Source: Natrinema saccharevitans (GTDB lineage: Archaea; Halobacteriota; Halobacteria; Halobacteriales; Natrialbaceae). From it: a DNA stretch of 64,000 bases. The notes under the pieces are model-generated. The model had not been told where the DNA came from. It did no database searches and saw only the letters and a list, made by a program, of their open reading frames with translations. The DNA lies in assembly GCF_001953745.1 (NCBI RefSeq), contig NZ_LWLN01000001.1, forward strand, positions 2,542,001 through 2,606,000, in the 5' to 3' direction. Of the stretch, positions 45,745-51,608 are shown piece after piece (the first letter of the stretch is position 1; every line of letters begins with the position of its first letter). The position numbers and the translations under genes were made by a program.

Positions 45745-46617
45745 CTACCGGCGGCTTCGGAGTCGAACGTCGTACTCACACGCCGTCGAGATTCGATTCA
45801 GGGACTCCCTGACGGCTGCCATCGTTTCCGCGTCGGGAAACCGTAGTTCGGACGGTCGATGTCGGCCGAGTAGCCGGTCGAGTCGTCGGCGTAGCCGCGT
45901 CGATGCCGCTCCGTCCGGGGTCGACCAAGTGACGACGGCGGTCAGGTCCGTCTCGTCGAATTCGATAGCTGCGATCGCCTCGAGATCGTACGCTCGAGAC
46001 CGCGTGGAGTCGTCGATGACGAGTTCGACGCAGGTCGTCCCCGCCCGCAGTTCGTACCGTCGTTCACCGACGGCCCAGGAGTGCAGGTCCGACCGGGCGA
46101 GCAGGCACGTTTCGGTGAGCGAACGAACGGACTCCCGTAACTCGGCTTTCGTGGTCGCATCGAGACCTCGGAGATTGGCGTTTCTGACGTGTGCCTCGTC
46201 CGGCGTCGAGTGATACCGCCACTCGTCGTCGTCGACGACCAAAATCTGTTTGACGTCGTAGAGCCGCCACGTCCGCTCCGGTTCGGAAGAGATCGAGAAC
46301 GGGACCATCGCCGTCCGCCCGTCGCCCTCGAGCGATCGGTGGAACTCGGTTCCGAGATTCGGTGCCCACGTCCGACGCTCGTCGGAAACGCGTCGGAAGT
46401 CGGTTCGAAGCGCCTCGAGCGCTCCCGGGGCCCGAGTGGCGAGTTCGTCTTCCCACACGAGGACGCGAAGCGCCGTTCCGTGTTCGACGGCCCACTCGAG
46501 GACCGCGTTTTCGGCCTCGATCAGTCGAGCATTGTAGCTCCGGTCGGTCGCGTCCGTCTTTCGCACGAGGAGTCTGTGCGTCCAGTTCGACGGGTATGGA
46601 TCGAATCCGGACAGCAT
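45745..46617 (-). CDS. Unrecognised 290-residue protein between two purB ends
   Basis: The soluble protein begins MLSGFDPYPSNWTHRLLVRK, unusually rich in Arg and Trp for this genome. It has a strand-rich middle (ERTWRLYDVKQILVVDDDEW) and a second strand-rich part (LELVIDD-like, then DLTAVVTWSTPDGAASTRLRRRL). It ends DVRLRSRR. I know no family. It reads opposite to purB and lies between the real purB end and a degraded copy of that end, so it may be the cargo of an inserted element. Confidence 0.65.
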   Translation of the reverse strand: MLSGFDPYPSNWTHRLLVRKTDATDRSYNARLIEAENAVLEWAVEHGTALRVLVWEDELATRAPGALEALRTDFRRVSDERRTWAPNLGTEFHRSLEGDGRTAMVPFSISSEPERTWRLYDVKQILVVDDDEWRYHSTPDEAHVRNANLRGLDATTKAELRESVRSLTETCLLARSDLHSWAVGERRYELRAGTTCVELVIDDSTRSRAYDLEAIAAIEFDETDLTAVVTWSTPDGAASTRLRRRLDRLLGRHRPSELRFPDAETMAAVRESLNRISTACEYDVRLRSRR

Positions 46618-46795
46618 CAGTTGATCAGTCGGATAAAATTTATCACAGCTACATATAATTTGTCCGCTGACGATCCCGAACCCGTCGTTACGCGGGGACG
46701 CCGGTCAGCGGTTTAACGACCATACCCGGTTGCGATCGCGTACGCAATAGCCTGACGACCGCAGGAATCGAACCGTGGTGCATCTGCGGTTTCTC

Positions 46796-46921
46796 GAGCG
46801 CGTCGGAGCCGTCACCAACTTCGACGAGGTCGCCCCTGCGGATATCCGCGAGGAACTGCGGGCGTTGACGCTGGCCGGGTACACGGGCGTGTCGAGCGAG
46901 GTAGTCGACGGCCTCGAGTAG
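46796..46921 (+). pseudogene. Fragment of the purB 3' end
   Basis: Reads ERVGAVTNFDEVAPAD, then REELRALTLAGYTGVSSEVV and DGLE with stop. The last 72 bases match the end of purB (45591-45662) at 65 positions. The first part resembles YERVKAVTRGKDVTLEDF of PurB with the piece between deleted. An in-frame stop lies 20 codons before this segment, so it is not a gene on its own. Confidence 0.8.
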
Positions 46922-46993
46922 GCGGTCGACGCGTTCTGGAGATCGGACGTCTTGGAGACAGAGATCGGATAGCATGAGCGGTCTCGTCGGAAC

Positions 46994-47077
46994 TATAGTA
47001 GCCACTGAAAGTCATTGTACACCCGATCGCACGACGGCTGTGCGATCGGTGTGTAAATCGTTTCAGTTGTTCCTATA
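46994..47077 (+). repeat. 84-base palindromic repeat, family A, copy 3
   Basis: Plus strand begins TATAGTAGCCACTGAAAGTC, holds CCCGATCGCACGACGGCTG followed by TGCGATCGGTGTG, and ends TTTCAGTTGTTCCTATAG. It is the same length and has the same order of blocks as copies 1 and 2. It lies 72 bases after the purB fragment and is not joined to a regulator gene. Confidence 0.85.
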
Positions 47078-47180
47078 GACGTCGTATATTGACGAGATCT
47101 ACGTTTCAACGATCTGTTTATCGATCTTATACGGACTCTCAGACGAATTGAGGGTCCCCCTCTCGTATTGTCAGGTGGTG

Positions 47181-47188
47181 TATATATA
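47181..47188 (+). promoter_or_regulatory. TATA box before the TasA-like pair
   Basis: TATATATA in an AT-rich setting about 107 bases before the ATG at 47295 implies a leader of about 80 bases, longer than for most genes here. This leaves room for post-transcriptional control. Confidence 0.45.
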
Positions 47189-47294
47189 CTGGGGTGTGTA
47201 GCATAGCCGTTCTCGAGTCGCTCCGGACGTGGGGAGGTGACGGACGGTGGGTCCGGCCGCCGAACGCGATGGAGCGGCTACGGAGAATACGACT

Positions 47295-47837
47295 ATGACG
47301 GACAAGAAATTCGACCTCTCGCGGCGCAAGGTACTCGGAAGTATCGGCCTCATCGGCGCTGGCAGCGCGGTTGCAGGCGCAGGGACGATGGCGTATTTCA
47401 GCGACACTGAGGAAAGTACAGGCAACACCGTATCCGCTGGGACACTCGATCTGAAGGTCAATGGGAATGACATTCAGGATGGAGCTAGCGTGAATATCGG
47501 CCCTCTCGTCCCTGGTGATTCAGAATCTTACTCGCTCAATCTGGGGGTTGAAGGCGATACCGGCGGAGATCTGTACCTCAAGTTCGATTCTGGGGGGGCG
47601 CTTGAGGACGATCTCGATCTGTCCTGGGACGTAGCCGGTGGTAACTCAGGGGATGTCAACCTCGAGAATACACCGACCGGCTGGATCTCTACGAACCGAG
47701 GAATCGACCCAGAGGACGACCCTGTTAGTGGCACCTTCACTGCGACACTACCTGAGAGTGTCGGGAACGAAGCTCAGGAGGAAGAAGTCGACATCGATGT
47801 CGCGATGAAAATCGTCCAGTACGGCGGTTCCCCCTAA
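47295..47837 (+). CDS. TasA/camelysin-like secreted protein with SipW-type signal
   Basis: The 180-residue protein begins MTDKKFDLSRRKVLGSIGLI. The hydrophobic signal ends in GAGTMAYFSDTEESTGNT, the hallmark of SipW-dependent signal peptides. The mature part is a strand-rich jelly-roll domain (GTLDLKVNGNDI, then LVPGDSESYSLNLGVEGDTG) as in TasA and camelysin. Such proteins polymerise by strand exchange into extracellular fibres in bacteria, and archaeal bundling pili are related. The matching peptidase is encoded at 49130. First of a two-gene operon; lower GC than the surroundings. Confidence 0.87.
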   Translation: MTDKKFDLSRRKVLGSIGLIGAGSAVAGAGTMAYFSDTEESTGNTVSAGTLDLKVNGNDIQDGASVNIGPLVPGDSESYSLNLGVEGDTGGDLYLKFDSGGALEDDLDLSWDVAGGNSGDVNLENTPTGWISTNRGIDPEDDPVSGTFTATLPESVGNEAQEEEVDIDVAMKIVQYGGSP

Positions 47838-47870
47838 CTGAGCCCGTTCCCTCGCCGGAATCCTCTAATT

Positions 47871-48569
47871 ATGTTTGACGACAACAGTAGCACTCCACTG
47901 ACCCGGCGTCGTCTGCTCGGTGTCCTAACAGCTATCGGCGTGACAGGAGCGGCATCAGGTGCCGGAACGTGGGCGTACTTCAGCGACACGGAGGAGAGTA
48001 CCGGAAACACCATTGAAGCCGGTACGCTCGATCTGAAAGTCTCCGACGACGGCGACGGGTTCGGGGACGGCGTCTCCGGTTCGTGGACGATCTCGAACGC
48101 AAAGCCCGGTGACAGCGTGATGACCAACGTCTCGCTCCAGAACGCCGGCTCGCTGGAAGCGGACCACGTCGAGATCGGCTTCTCGGTCGACGAAACCGAG
48201 TCCGACGGGTCGACAGGGACCAATGCGGCGGACACCATGCCCTCGAGTGCCGATGGCATGACCGAGCAGTTCAAGGTCACCGTGTTCACGTACAACGGTA
48301 CCAACGTCCTCGAGGACCTGTTGGACGCGAACGGCAACGGCCTCGTAGACGTCGATGATCTGGTGACTGGGAACGACGCACCGCTCGACGATCTCAATCC
48401 GCCGCCGAGCGCGAACGGCGGCACCGAGACGATGACGATGCAGTTCCGGTGGGCTCACGACGACGAGTTCGACAATTCGGTATCCGGTACCAACAACGAC
48501 TATCAGGGCGACGAGTTCGACCTCACGGTCACCTACGCCCTGCATCAGGACACCAGCCAGGACCTGTAG
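47871..48569 (+). CDS. Second TasA/camelysin-like secreted protein
   Basis: The 232-residue protein has the same signal end (AGTWAYFSDTEESTGNT) and the same first strands of the mature part (EAGTLDLKVSDDG, then SNAKPGDSVMTNVSLQNAG). A longer insert (FTYNGTNVLEDLLDANGNGL and VDVDDLV) looks like a dockerin/EF-type calcium loop. It starts 33 bases after the first TasA-like gene. The two may be major and minor fibre subunits. Confidence 0.87.
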   Translation: MFDDNSSTPLTRRRLLGVLTAIGVTGAASGAGTWAYFSDTEESTGNTIEAGTLDLKVSDDGDGFGDGVSGSWTISNAKPGDSVMTNVSLQNAGSLEADHVEIGFSVDETESDGSTGTNAADTMPSSADGMTEQFKVTVFTYNGTNVLEDLLDANGNGLVDVDDLVTGNDAPLDDLNPPPSANGGTETMTMQFRWAHDDEFDNSVSGTNNDYQGDEFDLTVTYALHQDTSQDL

Positions 48570-48710
48570 CGTCCCCTCCCACCTCATCCTTCTCGGCGAC
48601 TCGAGGTACTGAGAGGGTACAAAGCGAACATACCGCCTATCGCGACTGAGTAGATATCTGTCAGCGACACGAACGGGGAGCCGCCAGTCAGAAGTCGATC
48701 GATGAAACGG

Positions 48711-49124
48711 CTACTGACGGGTCGACACGTTCGCTGCCGTCTCGTTGGTGCCCTGTCCGTTCGGTTCGGTTGTCGACGCGTTCTGAGCGGTCTCAGCCGT
48801 CACCGGACCGTCGGCGTCGGATTCTTCACTAATAGGGTCTCCCAATTCTGATTGGGTTTCACTCTCGTTCATTTCGCGTTCGTTCTCGTCGCTGCTCGTG
48901 TGGCTGTCGTTCGTCTCATTGCCATCGGATTCGTTTTCGTTGCGTTCGTTCGGTTGCGGTTCGTCGTCGGTACCCATCGACTCGTTCCAGTCGGCCCCGA
49001 CCTCGCCGAGCGTCACCACCTCCTTGTCGGTTAACCCGCTCGTCGTCGTCGACGCCGTCGCCCCTGTCAGCGCGAACGCGATCACCGCTAGCAGCACGAA
49101 TCGGGTTCGTTGGTTCGGTTGCAT
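48711..49124 (-). CDS. Secreted Asn/Glu-rich protein of the SipW cluster
   Basis: The 137-residue protein has a signal peptide (TRFVLLAVIAFALTGATAS) followed by an acidic, disordered mature part. I count eight N-x-S/T sequons (for example ESDGNETNDSHTSSD and MNESETQ). It lies five bases after the stop of the signal peptidase gene, so the two are co-transcribed. It could be an accessory or matrix glycoprotein of the fibre system; no family recognised. Confidence 0.7.
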   Translation of the reverse strand: MQPNQRTRFVLLAVIAFALTGATASTTTSGLTDKEVVTLGEVGADWNESMGTDDEPQPNERNENESDGNETNDSHTSSDENEREMNESETQSELGDPISEESDADGPVTAETAQNASTTEPNGQGTNETAANVSTRQ

Positions 49125-49129
49125 TGGTA

Positions 49130-49753
49130 TCAATCGTCTTCCGTCGGTTCCGGAGCGCCGTGGTCCGCCGCTCGAGCCCCCGCAGAATCGCCGTTACCGT
49201 CCGCGTCGGAGGTATCATCGTCGCCTTCAGCTCTTATCCATGCGCGGTACAGGTTCCATACTTCCGAGACGGCCAGCAACGTACCCGGGACGATCACGAA
49301 CAGTGCGATCCCGAGCCTCGAGCCGGCGAACAGAACCACGTGACCGATGTGCGGCAGCGTCTGCGTGTGCCGGCCCTCGACGGCGCTGGCCGACACGAGA
49401 TCACCGTCGGGTTCGTCGTTCGCGTCGCCCTGCGTCCGGAACTGTCGTTCGCCGTCGCGTTCGACGACCTCGACCACGCGGTGAGTAGTCCGCTCGCCGC
49501 TGCCGTCCGCGTACGTGATCACGTCGCCCGACTCGATCGACGCGGGATCGACGTCCTCAACGAGGATCACGTCGCCCGACTCGAACGTCGGGCTCATGCT
49601 GTCGGAGAGGACGACGTGGCTCTGGCTGGCACCCGCCAGTTGCGGGACGCCGACGATCAGGAACGGGACGACGATCGCGAGCAACACGAGGACGCCGACG
49701 ACGTTGACGAGAGACCGCCGCTCCGGAAGGGCCTCGCGTATGGCATCGTTCAT
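49130..49753 (-). CDS. Signal peptidase I, SipW/Sec11 type
   Basis: The 207-residue membrane protein has one N-terminal helix (about 15-40), catalytic Ser52 in VVLSDSMSPTF and His91 in ERTTHRVVEVV, the Ser-His pairing of archaeal/ER-type peptidases. A second helix follows at about 138-165, then an acidic tail. It should remove signal peptides outside the membrane. Its place among two AYFSDTE-type secreted proteins argues that it is the dedicated peptidase, as SipW is for TasA. The start is 11 bases after the stop of the upstream regulator gene. Confidence 0.9.
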   Translation of the reverse strand: MNDAIREALPERRSLVNVVGVLVLLAIVVPFLIVGVPQLAGASQSHVVLSDSMSPTFESGDVILVEDVDPASIESGDVITYADGSGERTTHRVVEVVERDGERQFRTQGDANDEPDGDLVSASAVEGRHTQTLPHIGHVVLFAGSRLGIALFVIVPGTLLAVSEVWNLYRAWIRAEGDDDTSDADGNGDSAGARAADHGAPEPTEDD

Positions 49754-49764
49754 CGTCGGTCACC

Positions 49765-50370
49765 TCACGCCGGCGGGTCCCCGGCCGAACCGAGTCGGTT
49801 CGCTCGTTCGTGATACCGATGCGCGATCGCCGACCCCACGAACAACAGCGTGACGAGGGCGGCGAGTCCGAGCCCGGGGACCTCCGAGAGCGGGAAGAGA
49901 CCAACTCCCGAAAGCGTCACCGCGACCGCACAGAGACCCCCGAGCCCGAGGTAGTACGTACTCCAGGGAATCTCGTCGTGCGGAACGACGTCCAAGTACA
50001 CCTCGAGTTCGGACGCGTCGTCAGTCAGTTCGATGACGCCGGCCGAGGAGTCGAACTCGACGATGTCGTTCTCGTCCATCTTCGGCAGGTGAGACTGCCG
50101 AAGCGCCGTATAGACGCGCATTCGCTGCTTGTGGGTCACGGCGTCGACGTCGACATCGTTCTCCCAGGCCGCGAGCTCCCTCGATAGCTCGCGGAGAGAC
50201 ACTTCCCGCTGTTCCCGCATGAGATAGTGCAGGCTGTACCGCCGTCGCGGACAACTCAGCACGGTGAACGCCACGTCCTGAGTCAGTCCGTCGCTCGCGT
50301 CGTCGATCCTTTCGTCAGTCTCCTCGATCGCGGTCTCGCCGATCGATTCGACGCTCATCCGTTCGACCAC
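49765..50370 (-). CDS. Membrane-bound winged-helix regulator (DUF7344-like)
   Basis: The 201-residue protein has an N-terminal winged helix (about 30-125: VAFTVLSCPRRRYSLHYLM, then KQRMRVYTALRQSHLPKMDE and GVIELTD). Two membrane helices (about 138-185) and a short basic tail follow. The arrangement suggests a membrane-anchored transcription regulator controlling its own operon and perhaps the convergent TasA-like genes. An ATG at 50358 is an alternative start. First gene of the regulator-peptidase-secreted protein operon. Confidence 0.78.
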   Translation of the reverse strand: MVERMSVESIGETAIEETDERIDDASDGLTQDVAFTVLSCPRRRYSLHYLMREQREVSLRELSRELAAWENDVDVDAVTHKQRMRVYTALRQSHLPKMDENDIVEFDSSAGVIELTDDASELEVYLDVVPHDEIPWSTYYLGLGGLCAVAVTLSGVGLFPLSEVPGLGLAALVTLLFVGSAIAHRYHERANRLGSAGDPPA

Positions 50371-50769
50371 CGGGGTCGGCGGCGAACGGTCCCCTGTACC
50401 GTTCTCGGTCGAAGTCTCCCCCTCATACGATAGTGTGATCCGTCCTGTGGCGACTGTGGTAAATAGTTATTAACTGGTTGTCTCTCGGCGAGACGTTCTA
50501 GCCGAGATTAATAATAGAATTACGTACTCGAGGATAGGCCTATTATCGAATTATAGCGAATACGTCCGTATTCACCCCTGTACTGTAGCTTTCGGACATT
50601 TCTGATAGTGTTTGATACCAGACATTAGTACTGGGCGCGAATCGGAACCGAAACCCGGTCACCAACGAGCGAGTTCGAGGGCTCACCTCGAGCCGCCCGT
50701 CCGCTTCGCGATACCGGATCGCGGTACCGGAATAGTGACACTATTGGACGCCCTCAATCGAGGGCTCGT
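50371..50769. other. AT-rich promoter region between divergent units
   Basis: No gene seen. Bases 50456-50640 are AT-rich (for example AATAGTTATTAACTGG and AATAATAGAATTACG) and contain several possible TATA boxes for the regulator operon on the minus strand. Bases 50735-50769 contain TAGTGACACTATTGG just before the transporter gene, with an inverted repeat TAGTG/CACTA that could be an operator. Confidence 0.5.
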
Positions 50770-51192
50770 ATGGAGTATCTGCTCTGGGTGATCGTCGCCC
50801 TCCTCGCCTACGGGCTGATGGCACCGCTGACGAGTTTCGTGACGGCGGAGGTCCCGCCCGCGGTCGCGCTCTTTCTCTCGACGACGGTCTTCCTCTGTCT
50901 GACGGCGGTCGTCCTCCTGGTGACCGGGACGGGCCAACTGGCCGACGTGACGACGCCGTCGGCGGGGATCGTCTACGTCGCCGGCCTCTTCCTCTCGACG
51001 GGGATCCTCGCGTACTATCAGGCCCTAGAGCAGGGCCCGGTCAGCGTCGTCGTCCCGATCTACGGCCTCTTTATCGTCGGCAGTTCGATCGTCGGCATCG
51101 CCGCACTGGGCGAGGAGTTGACCGCCACGCGGGCGGCCGGGATCGCCGTCGCGACGGCTGCGATCTACCTCGCGGCCGGAGGTGAGCAGTGA
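50770..51192 (+). CDS. Half-size EamA (DMT) transporter, first of a pair
   Basis: The 140-residue membrane protein has five predicted helices, equal to one EamA domain. Motifs are LLAYGLMAPLTSF and the closing GPVSVVVPIYGLFIVGSSIV. Normal EamA transporters have two such domains in one chain. The stop overlaps the ATG of a second half-size gene, so a two-chain transporter is likely. Substrate unknown. Confidence 0.85.
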   Translation: MEYLLWVIVALLAYGLMAPLTSFVTAEVPPAVALFLSTTVFLCLTAVVLLVTGTGQLADVTTPSAGIVYVAGLFLSTGILAYYQALEQGPVSVVVPIYGLFIVGSSIVGIAALGEELTATRAAGIAVATAAIYLAAGGEQ

Positions 51193-51608
51193 TGCGCCGG
51201 TACCTCGAGCTGTCGGTCCTCGCCTGTCTGGCCTACAGTCTGGTCGCCCCGCTGCTCTCGATCGCGATGACCGACCTGCCGAGTTCCCTCGCCGTGTTCC
51301 TCTCGAACTCGGTGATGTTCGTCACGGTCGGCCTCGTCGTCCGCTATCGCGGACATCCCGTGCGGCCGTACCTGCGCCATCCCCGCACCCCCTACATCCT
51401 CGCGATGGGCGTGCTGCTGACGATCGGGCTGTTGACCTACTACCGGGCGCTCGCGCTCGGTCCGGTGAGCATCGTCGTCCCGATCTACGGCCTGTTCATC
51501 GTGGTCAGTTCCCTGCTCGGGATCGTCGCGTTCGACGAGGCCGTCACCCCGCGAAAGCTCGCCGCCATCGCCCTGAGCGTGGTCGCGATCGCACTGATGT
51601 CGGTCTGA
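51192..51608 (+). CDS. Half-size EamA (DMT) transporter, second of a pair
   Basis: The 138-residue membrane protein has five predicted helices and is similar to the preceding product along its length, especially LACLAYSLVAPLLS and GPVSIVVPIYGLFIVVSSLLG. The ATG shares a base with the previous stop. Together they equal one ten-helix EamA transporter. A GTG three bases earlier is another possible start. Confidence 0.85.
   Translation: MRRYLELSVLACLAYSLVAPLLSIAMTDLPSSLAVFLSNSVMFVTVGLVVRYRGHPVRPYLRHPRTPYILAMGVLLTIGLLTYYRALALGPVSIVVPIYGLFIVVSSLLGIVAFDEAVTPRKLAAIALSVVAIALMSV

Follow-up and report, generated by a model that had tools for sequence, protein, structure and literature searches.

What might a haloarchaeon build from two TasA-like secreted proteins encoded opposite a SipW-type signal peptidase, and how would the parts be exported and joined? 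This question is raised by a compact locus of Natrinema saccharevitans, which lies in the 64-kb window of DNA analysed here (contig positions 2542001-2606000; coordinates below are those of the window). A preliminary description had proposed a TasA/SipW-type fibre system, in which two secreted proteins face an operon encoding a winged-helix protein, a signal peptidase and a glycoprotein-like partner. All five genes (i.e. TasA1, TasA2, WH, SP and GP) were found where that description had placed them, within 47295-50370. Our results support it in substance, with the formation of fibres being something that we infer, and the five genes probably represent a horizontally acquired, self-contained fibre system of this type, working by the mechanism proposed at the end of this report. 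The features discussed are as follows.

47295-47837, plus strand: TasA1, a TasA/camelysin-type protein of 180 amino acids (aa) with a signal of the twin-arginine translocation (Tat) type, LSRRKVLG, and a predicted cut at A33^Y34
47394-47453, plus strand: mature residues 1-20 of TasA1, a candidate donor strand and linker, YFSDTEESTGNTVSAGTLDL
47871-48569, plus strand: TasA2, a TasA/camelysin-type protein of 232 aa with a Tat-type signal, LTRRRLLG, and a predicted cut at A35^Y36
47976-48035, plus strand: mature residues 1-20 of TasA2, a candidate donor strand and linker, YFSDTEESTGNTIEAGTLDL, matching the Bacillus subtilis TasA donor strand (PMC9674648)
48711-49133, minus strand: GP, a sequon-rich secreted protein of 140 aa with a degenerate SipW-like signal end, TTSGLTDKEVV
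49130-49753, minus strand: SP, a SipW-type signal peptidase of 207 aa (endoplasmic reticulum type, Ser-His)
49765-50370, minus strand: WH, a DUF7344 winged-helix protein of 201 aa with two predicted C-terminal membrane helices
46926-50712, no strand assigned: the inserted block (limits approximate), which is flanked by a duplicated purB 3' end and the EamA gene

The two plus-strand genes are separated by 33 bp, and the minus-strand run WH-SP-GP converges on them. WH and SP are separated by 11 bp, and SP and GP overlap by 4 nt. The start codon of GP is TTG, with an ATG 9 nt downstream of it. The stretches upstream of the two gene runs (46930-47290 and 50371-50712) are AT-rich.

Family and fold of the putative subunits

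Both TasA1 and TasA2 carry GAGT(M/W)A^YFSDTEES-TGN around the predicted cleavage site. The AYFSDTE motif that had been described as a signal end is therefore present, but it spans the cleavage site and belongs mostly to the start of the mature protein. Assignment to the TasA/SipW type was confirmed by matches to three models. PF12389 (TasA/camelysin) matched TasA1 at 3.3e-8 (34.0 bits) and TasA2 at 8e-14 (52.3 bits) against a curated cut-off of 22.5; TIGR04088 (SipW-dependent signal peptide) matched TasA1 at 2.6e-9 and TasA2 at 8e-9, above its cut-off; and NF046067 (SipW) matched SP at 4e-33 (114.5 bits), with the Bacillus SipW equivalog cut-off of 190 bits not being reached. The TasA equivalog model NF046066 matched TasA2 at 2e-12 (46.9 bits), under its 450-bit cut-off; by its sequence, TasA2 is a relative of Bacillus TasA and not the Bacillus protein itself. 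TasA-type proteins of a Methanocellales archaeon (L178) and an Actinomycetes metagenome-assembled genome (L179) are 40-43% identical to mature TasA2 and thereby nearer to it than the haloarchaeal proteins with which they were aligned, a pattern that suggests transfer between phyla.

Structures of TasA1 and TasA2 were predicted with AlphaFold2 from 40- and 34-sequence alignments, giving a mean predicted local distance difference test score (pLDDT) of 82 for each model and a predicted template modelling score of 0.79 for TasA2. The preliminary description had made a jelly-roll fold a condition of its reading beforehand, and TasA came first in the fold ranking of both models. For TasA2, the TasA fibre (8aur) and TasA crystal forms were top-ranked (VIA Z 10.5 and 9.9), with the next unrelated row at 6.7. 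For TasA1, TasA was again top-ranked (VIA Z 9.2 to 5of2 and 8.3 to the fibre 8aur), followed by AbpA of Pyrobaculum (7ueg) at 8.0, in agreement with the claim that archaeal bundling pili share this fold. A comparison of the family profile with the PDB by sequence only returned TasA (5of1/8aur) at 1e-15 and the archaeal AbpX at 9e-5. A TasA jelly-roll fold is thus supported for both predicted structures.

As PF12389 is named Camelysin metallo-endopeptidase, the pair could instead be read as camelysin-type metallopeptidases (Pfam M73) with their own secreting peptidase. This reading was rejected on the finding that HEXXH is absent from both proteins and that TasA1 contains no histidine at all; the best structural relatives are likewise TasA and not peptidases, and we consider a protease role extremely improbable.

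In B. subtilis TasA, the donor strand consists of residues 28-38, the first residues of the mature protein (PMC9674648). Of the 178 windows of 20 residues in alignment A3, the equivalent stretch (i.e. mature residues 1-20) is the best conserved; its mean top-residue fraction is 0.69 as compared to 0.31 elsewhere. In the single-chain model of the TasA1 monomer, residues 1-7 have a pLDDT of <50, as expected of a free strand. Both the conservation and the low modelling confidence in TasA1 are consistent with a candidate donor strand. A competing explanation is that TasA1 and TasA2 are SipW-processed TasA-fold surface or matrix proteins that do not polymerise, e.g. S-layer-associated adhesins or decorations. 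In its favour, related loci often encode homologues of far greater length (400-700 aa), which would be unusual as fibre subunits, and the literature searched contained no report of a fibre built from a haloarchaeal TasA-type protein, a point that also counts against our own reading. Against it stand the TasA-like size and fold of the pair, the position of the best-conserved stretch at the donor strand and the coupling of a TapA-like partner gene to the peptidase gene; we regard this explanation as unlikely.

Peptidase, export signals and the coupled partner

SP also matched the archaeal signal peptidase model TIGR02228 (1e-29, 103.5 bits), above the cut-off of 51.85. Ser52, His91, Asp110 and Asp116 are invariant among 26 sequences, with Ser-His in place of Ser-Lys. 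SP is the one SipW-type peptidase of the genome; apart from it, a single archaeal-type signal peptidase, a 392-aa protein encoded elsewhere, exceeds the family cut-off. Across the whole genome, TIGR04088 proteins are confined to TasA1 and TasA2; as these are the sole carriers of a SipW-type signal, SP is matched with its likely substrates in a closed set.

Co-occurrence was assessed across the order in 195 genomes, of which 66 encode an SP relative, 65 a TIGR04088 protein and 63 both (Fisher P 8e-45), as the preliminary description had anticipated for the peptidase and the secreted proteins. This P value is inflated by shared ancestry, although many families are represented and presence varies patchily inside the genus. 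In the three genomes with the peptidase only (G034, G099 and G130), TasA-like genes missed by TIGR04088 adjoin the peptidase gene, and proteins with SipW-type signals neighbour the peptidase in nearly all loci. Related loci were also found in several Haloferax species, so that the gene set is open to genetic testing. At one locus (L105, G061:C23), the signal encoded by the TasA-type genes lacks RR, and that genome yielded no SipW-type peptidase. Long-type loci (L046, L051, L060, L086 and similar) encode peptidases of 300-550 aa with a C-terminal extension, for which no Pfam match was obtained in the one scanned, together with larger TasA-type proteins and two extra Tat-type secreted proteins. 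These loci (e.g. L046, L051 and L086) resemble the window set in their RR-signal TasA-type proteins, SipW-type peptidase and overlapping GP-type gene, and differ from it in the larger subunits, the two extra secreted genes, the extended peptidase and the absence of a DUF7344 gene from the operon.

Export signals were compared between haloarchaeal TasA-type proteins and homologues elsewhere, a feature that lay outside the preliminary description. A twin arginine occurs in 138 of 146 haloarchaeal TasA-type signal peptides as compared to 4 of 46 outside the haloarchaea, the latter set having been chosen by motif and including some unrelated frames. The median Kyte-Doolittle hydropathy of the signal core was 1.65 for haloarchaeal TasA-type proteins, 2.57 for homologues elsewhere and 2.71 for the GP-type proteins of the same loci; the signals of the latter two groups are of Sec type. 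The signals of TasA1 and TasA2 have both the (S/T)RRx-hydrophobic motif and the weakly hydrophobic core of Tat substrates. Haloarchaea use Tat widely, and TatC homologues are present in this genome. With Tat-type signals on the subunits and Sec-type signals on the partner, the subunits are probably exported folded through Tat and the partner unfolded through Sec, with one peptidase probably cutting both. No mention of Tat export for haloarchaeal TasA-type proteins was found in the literature searched. In a published B. subtilis model, TasA arrives unfolded through Sec and is caught by TapA (PMC10151520); the Sulfolobus thread subunit has also been described as Sec-secreted (PMC9715654).

The mature part of GP contains 8 NxS/T sequons as compared to 2.5 expected in shuffled sequences (P 1.5e-4). 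GP gave no family match, being matched by neither TIGR04088 nor the TapA model TIGR04087, and by sequence it is not a TapA. Its neighbourhood was examined in related loci: a close same-strand gene lies 3' of the peptidase gene in 45 of 60 peptidase loci, and 43 of the 45 encode secreted, mostly short proteins. These 43 proteins (i.e. the GP family) have a signal end of roughly GGxTxA(L/V)(F/L)(S/T)D followed by a tail rich in Ser, Thr, Asn and Asp, and contain 320 sequons against 124 expected, a 2.6-fold excess. TIGR04088 matches 10 of the 43, and TIGR04087 weakly matches two (best, 0.0097). All 43 genes can begin at or before the peptidase stop codon, 26 of them via a 4-nt overlap, with starts having been extended upstream in this analysis, a choice that favours overlap. 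The signal end is SipW-like in most of these relatives. Because its members have a SipW-like signal end and excess sequons and overlap the peptidase gene, they are probably SipW substrates in a TapA-like position, making GP a probable third substrate. Of the description of GP as a glycoprotein-like partner, the sequon richness and secretion were upheld, but the protein is better read as a third SipW substrate, probably Sec-exported, in a TapA-like position.

The winged-helix gene and the origin of the block

WH matches PF24035 (DUF7344) at 3.7e-28 (98.1 bits; cut-off 27.8), and membrane helices are predicted at approximately residues 141-159 and 161-179, as expected of the membrane-bound winged-helix protein first proposed. 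No relative of WH was found in the PDB by sequence. Of 60 peptidase genes, 11, spread over four family groups, have a WH-type gene directly upstream; set against 24 DUF7344 matches in a genome of roughly 4000 genes, this pairing has a binomial P of ~1e-13. In addition, 10 of the 12 closest WH relatives are encoded directly upstream of a SipW-type peptidase; the other two adjoin different Tat-type secreted genes. On the peptidase tree, the WH-coupled state required 3 changes as compared to 10.3 in shuffles. From its position, WH may control the fibre genes. Close relatives of WH also occur in L101-L103 (G102, G124 and G186), where the neighbouring Tat-type secreted proteins have a signal end that looks ordinary and a SipW peptidase is absent; these loci are possibly a related surface system.

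The region between purB and the EamA gene was compared with sister genomes. In most of those with both genes, the EamA gene follows purB by 80-160 bp. The interval is 5.1 kb in the window, where an unrelated gene and a repeat of the purB 3' end accompany the five-gene block; matches of the flank to sister genomes resume at 50713. The block genes have a G+C content of 56-66% as compared to 68-69% in purB and the EamA gene. Given the absence of the block between purB and EamA in sister genomes and its lower G+C content, the five genes most likely arrived together, as a horizontally acquired unit. The whole set is cleanly inserted, and to this extent it may be called self-contained, as had been suggested. 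No convincing direct or inverted repeats were found bounding the block. Less similar sets occur elsewhere in the genomes of two members of the genus (G184 and G024; SP identity, 43-46%). The nearest set found, in G136 (TasA2, 74%; TasA1, 57%; SP, 55% identity), has the same TasA1-TasA2 order with extra genes between TasA2 and SP.

The block could also be read as an island carrying a secretion cassette that is bacteriocin-like or derived from a virus. In favour of this, the earliest description of TasA was of an antibacterial component of spores, the block has been inserted at a hot spot with a G+C content below that of its flanks, its distribution in the order is patchy (66 of 195 genomes) and some peptidase relatives are on plasmids. 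No immunity, integrase or virion gene was seen in the block, however, and the set is widespread on chromosomes; a viral origin was rejected, there being no viral fold match at E 1e-3 within the fold library searched. We judge such a cassette to be improbable.

The purB-EamA interval is an insertion hot spot in the genus. In G184, of the same genus, it measures 1.4 kb owing to the same unrelated gene as in the window. A gene with a weak HVO_2833 C-terminal match (45745-46617) is inserted after purB in the window genome and G184 and is absent there from G154 and G047. The copy of the purB 3' end lies at 46795-46925 and is 90% identical over the last 77 nt. Beyond the block, two half-size EamA-type membrane proteins of ~140 aa each are encoded in tandem (50770-51608) and are conserved in most of the genus.

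Proposed assembly and comparison with known systems

The gene content, families, predicted folds, co-occurrence, signal-peptide types, gene overlap and insertion described above would fit the following route. TasA1 and TasA2 would fold in the cytoplasm as jelly-roll monomers, probably self-complemented, and would cross the membrane via Tat while still held by their signal peptides. SP would then cut after the Ala of (M/W)A^YFSDTE, releasing an N-terminal strand; by inserting into the neighbouring subunit, this strand would allow a donor-strand fibre to grow. As the fibre could not start before the SipW-type peptidase had cut the anchored strand, this peptidase would be the trigger of assembly. 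GP, translationally coupled to SP, would probably be exported through Sec, be cut by the same peptidase and, N-glycosylated and close to the membrane, start or anchor the fibre as TapA does, whilst WH, membrane-held and encoded just before SP, would control the gene set. Haloarchaeal donor-strand fibres made in this way, from Tat-exported folded subunits with a SipW-type cut as trigger, a Sec-exported glycosylated partner as starter or anchor and a membrane-held winged-helix protein in control, are proposed tentatively, our doubts slightly outweighing our confidence.

Several observations weigh against a fibre system of this type in the window. TasA1 is short and its fold match is the weaker one (Z 8-9), with unrelated beta sandwiches at 7-8 (7.8); as this margin over common beta sandwiches is small, the assignment of TasA1 leans more on sequence. 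An RR motif is no proof of Tat use, and recognition by the peptidase alone could account for the conserved N-terminus. The GP of the window is among the most degenerate members of its family. Some WH relatives (1e-45 to 1e-54) are encoded outside SipW loci, and a regulatory role is argued from gene position.

The tapA-sipW-tasA operon of B. subtilis shares with the window a Ser-His peptidase of the SipW type, subunits of TasA fold whose mature N-terminus reads A^(Y/A)F.D and a coupled secreted partner; there, the tapA stop and sipW start overlap (PMC10151520). In contrast to B. subtilis, the subunit signals in the window are of Tat and not Sec type, two subunit genes lie on the opposite strand, the partner is low-complexity, sequon-rich and encoded 3' of the peptidase gene, and the operon includes a membrane winged-helix gene, with no SinR-type control seen. 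The sipW-calY1-bc_1280-calY2 locus of Bacillus cereus likewise combines one SipW-type peptidase with two TasA/camelysin paralogues, one of which has been suggested to fill the TapA role (PMC10151520); the window differs in gene order, Tat-type signals, the added regulator candidate and the sequon-rich protein. Among archaea, AbpA (Pyrobaculum) and AbpX (Pyrodictium) form donor-strand fibres related to TasA, as reflected in the matches given above, but come from hyperthermophiles. The thread of Sulfolobus acidocaldarius (Saci_0406, 7pnb) is a glycosylated donor-strand filament with a weak fold match to TasA1 (Z 7.4), for which a cap protein with a TapA-like role has been proposed; unlike the window set, its subunit is reported to be Sec-secreted and cut by signal peptidase I (PMC9715654). 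The system would thus be set apart from known TasA/SipW systems by its Tat-type subunits, glycosylatable coupled partner and coupled membrane winged-helix gene.

In Bacillus biofilms, the main protein scaffold consists of TasA-type fibres, and the donor-strand systems in the literature searched (i.e. TasA and threads) are reported or assumed to be Sec-exported. If the haloarchaeal subunits do leave the cell folded through Tat, assembly must be possible by self-complementation and subsequent strand exchange triggered by the protease, and two steps that can hardly be told apart in Bacillus would be separated. With this gene set, haloarchaea also gain a candidate for a surface fibre that has a putative regulator of its own.

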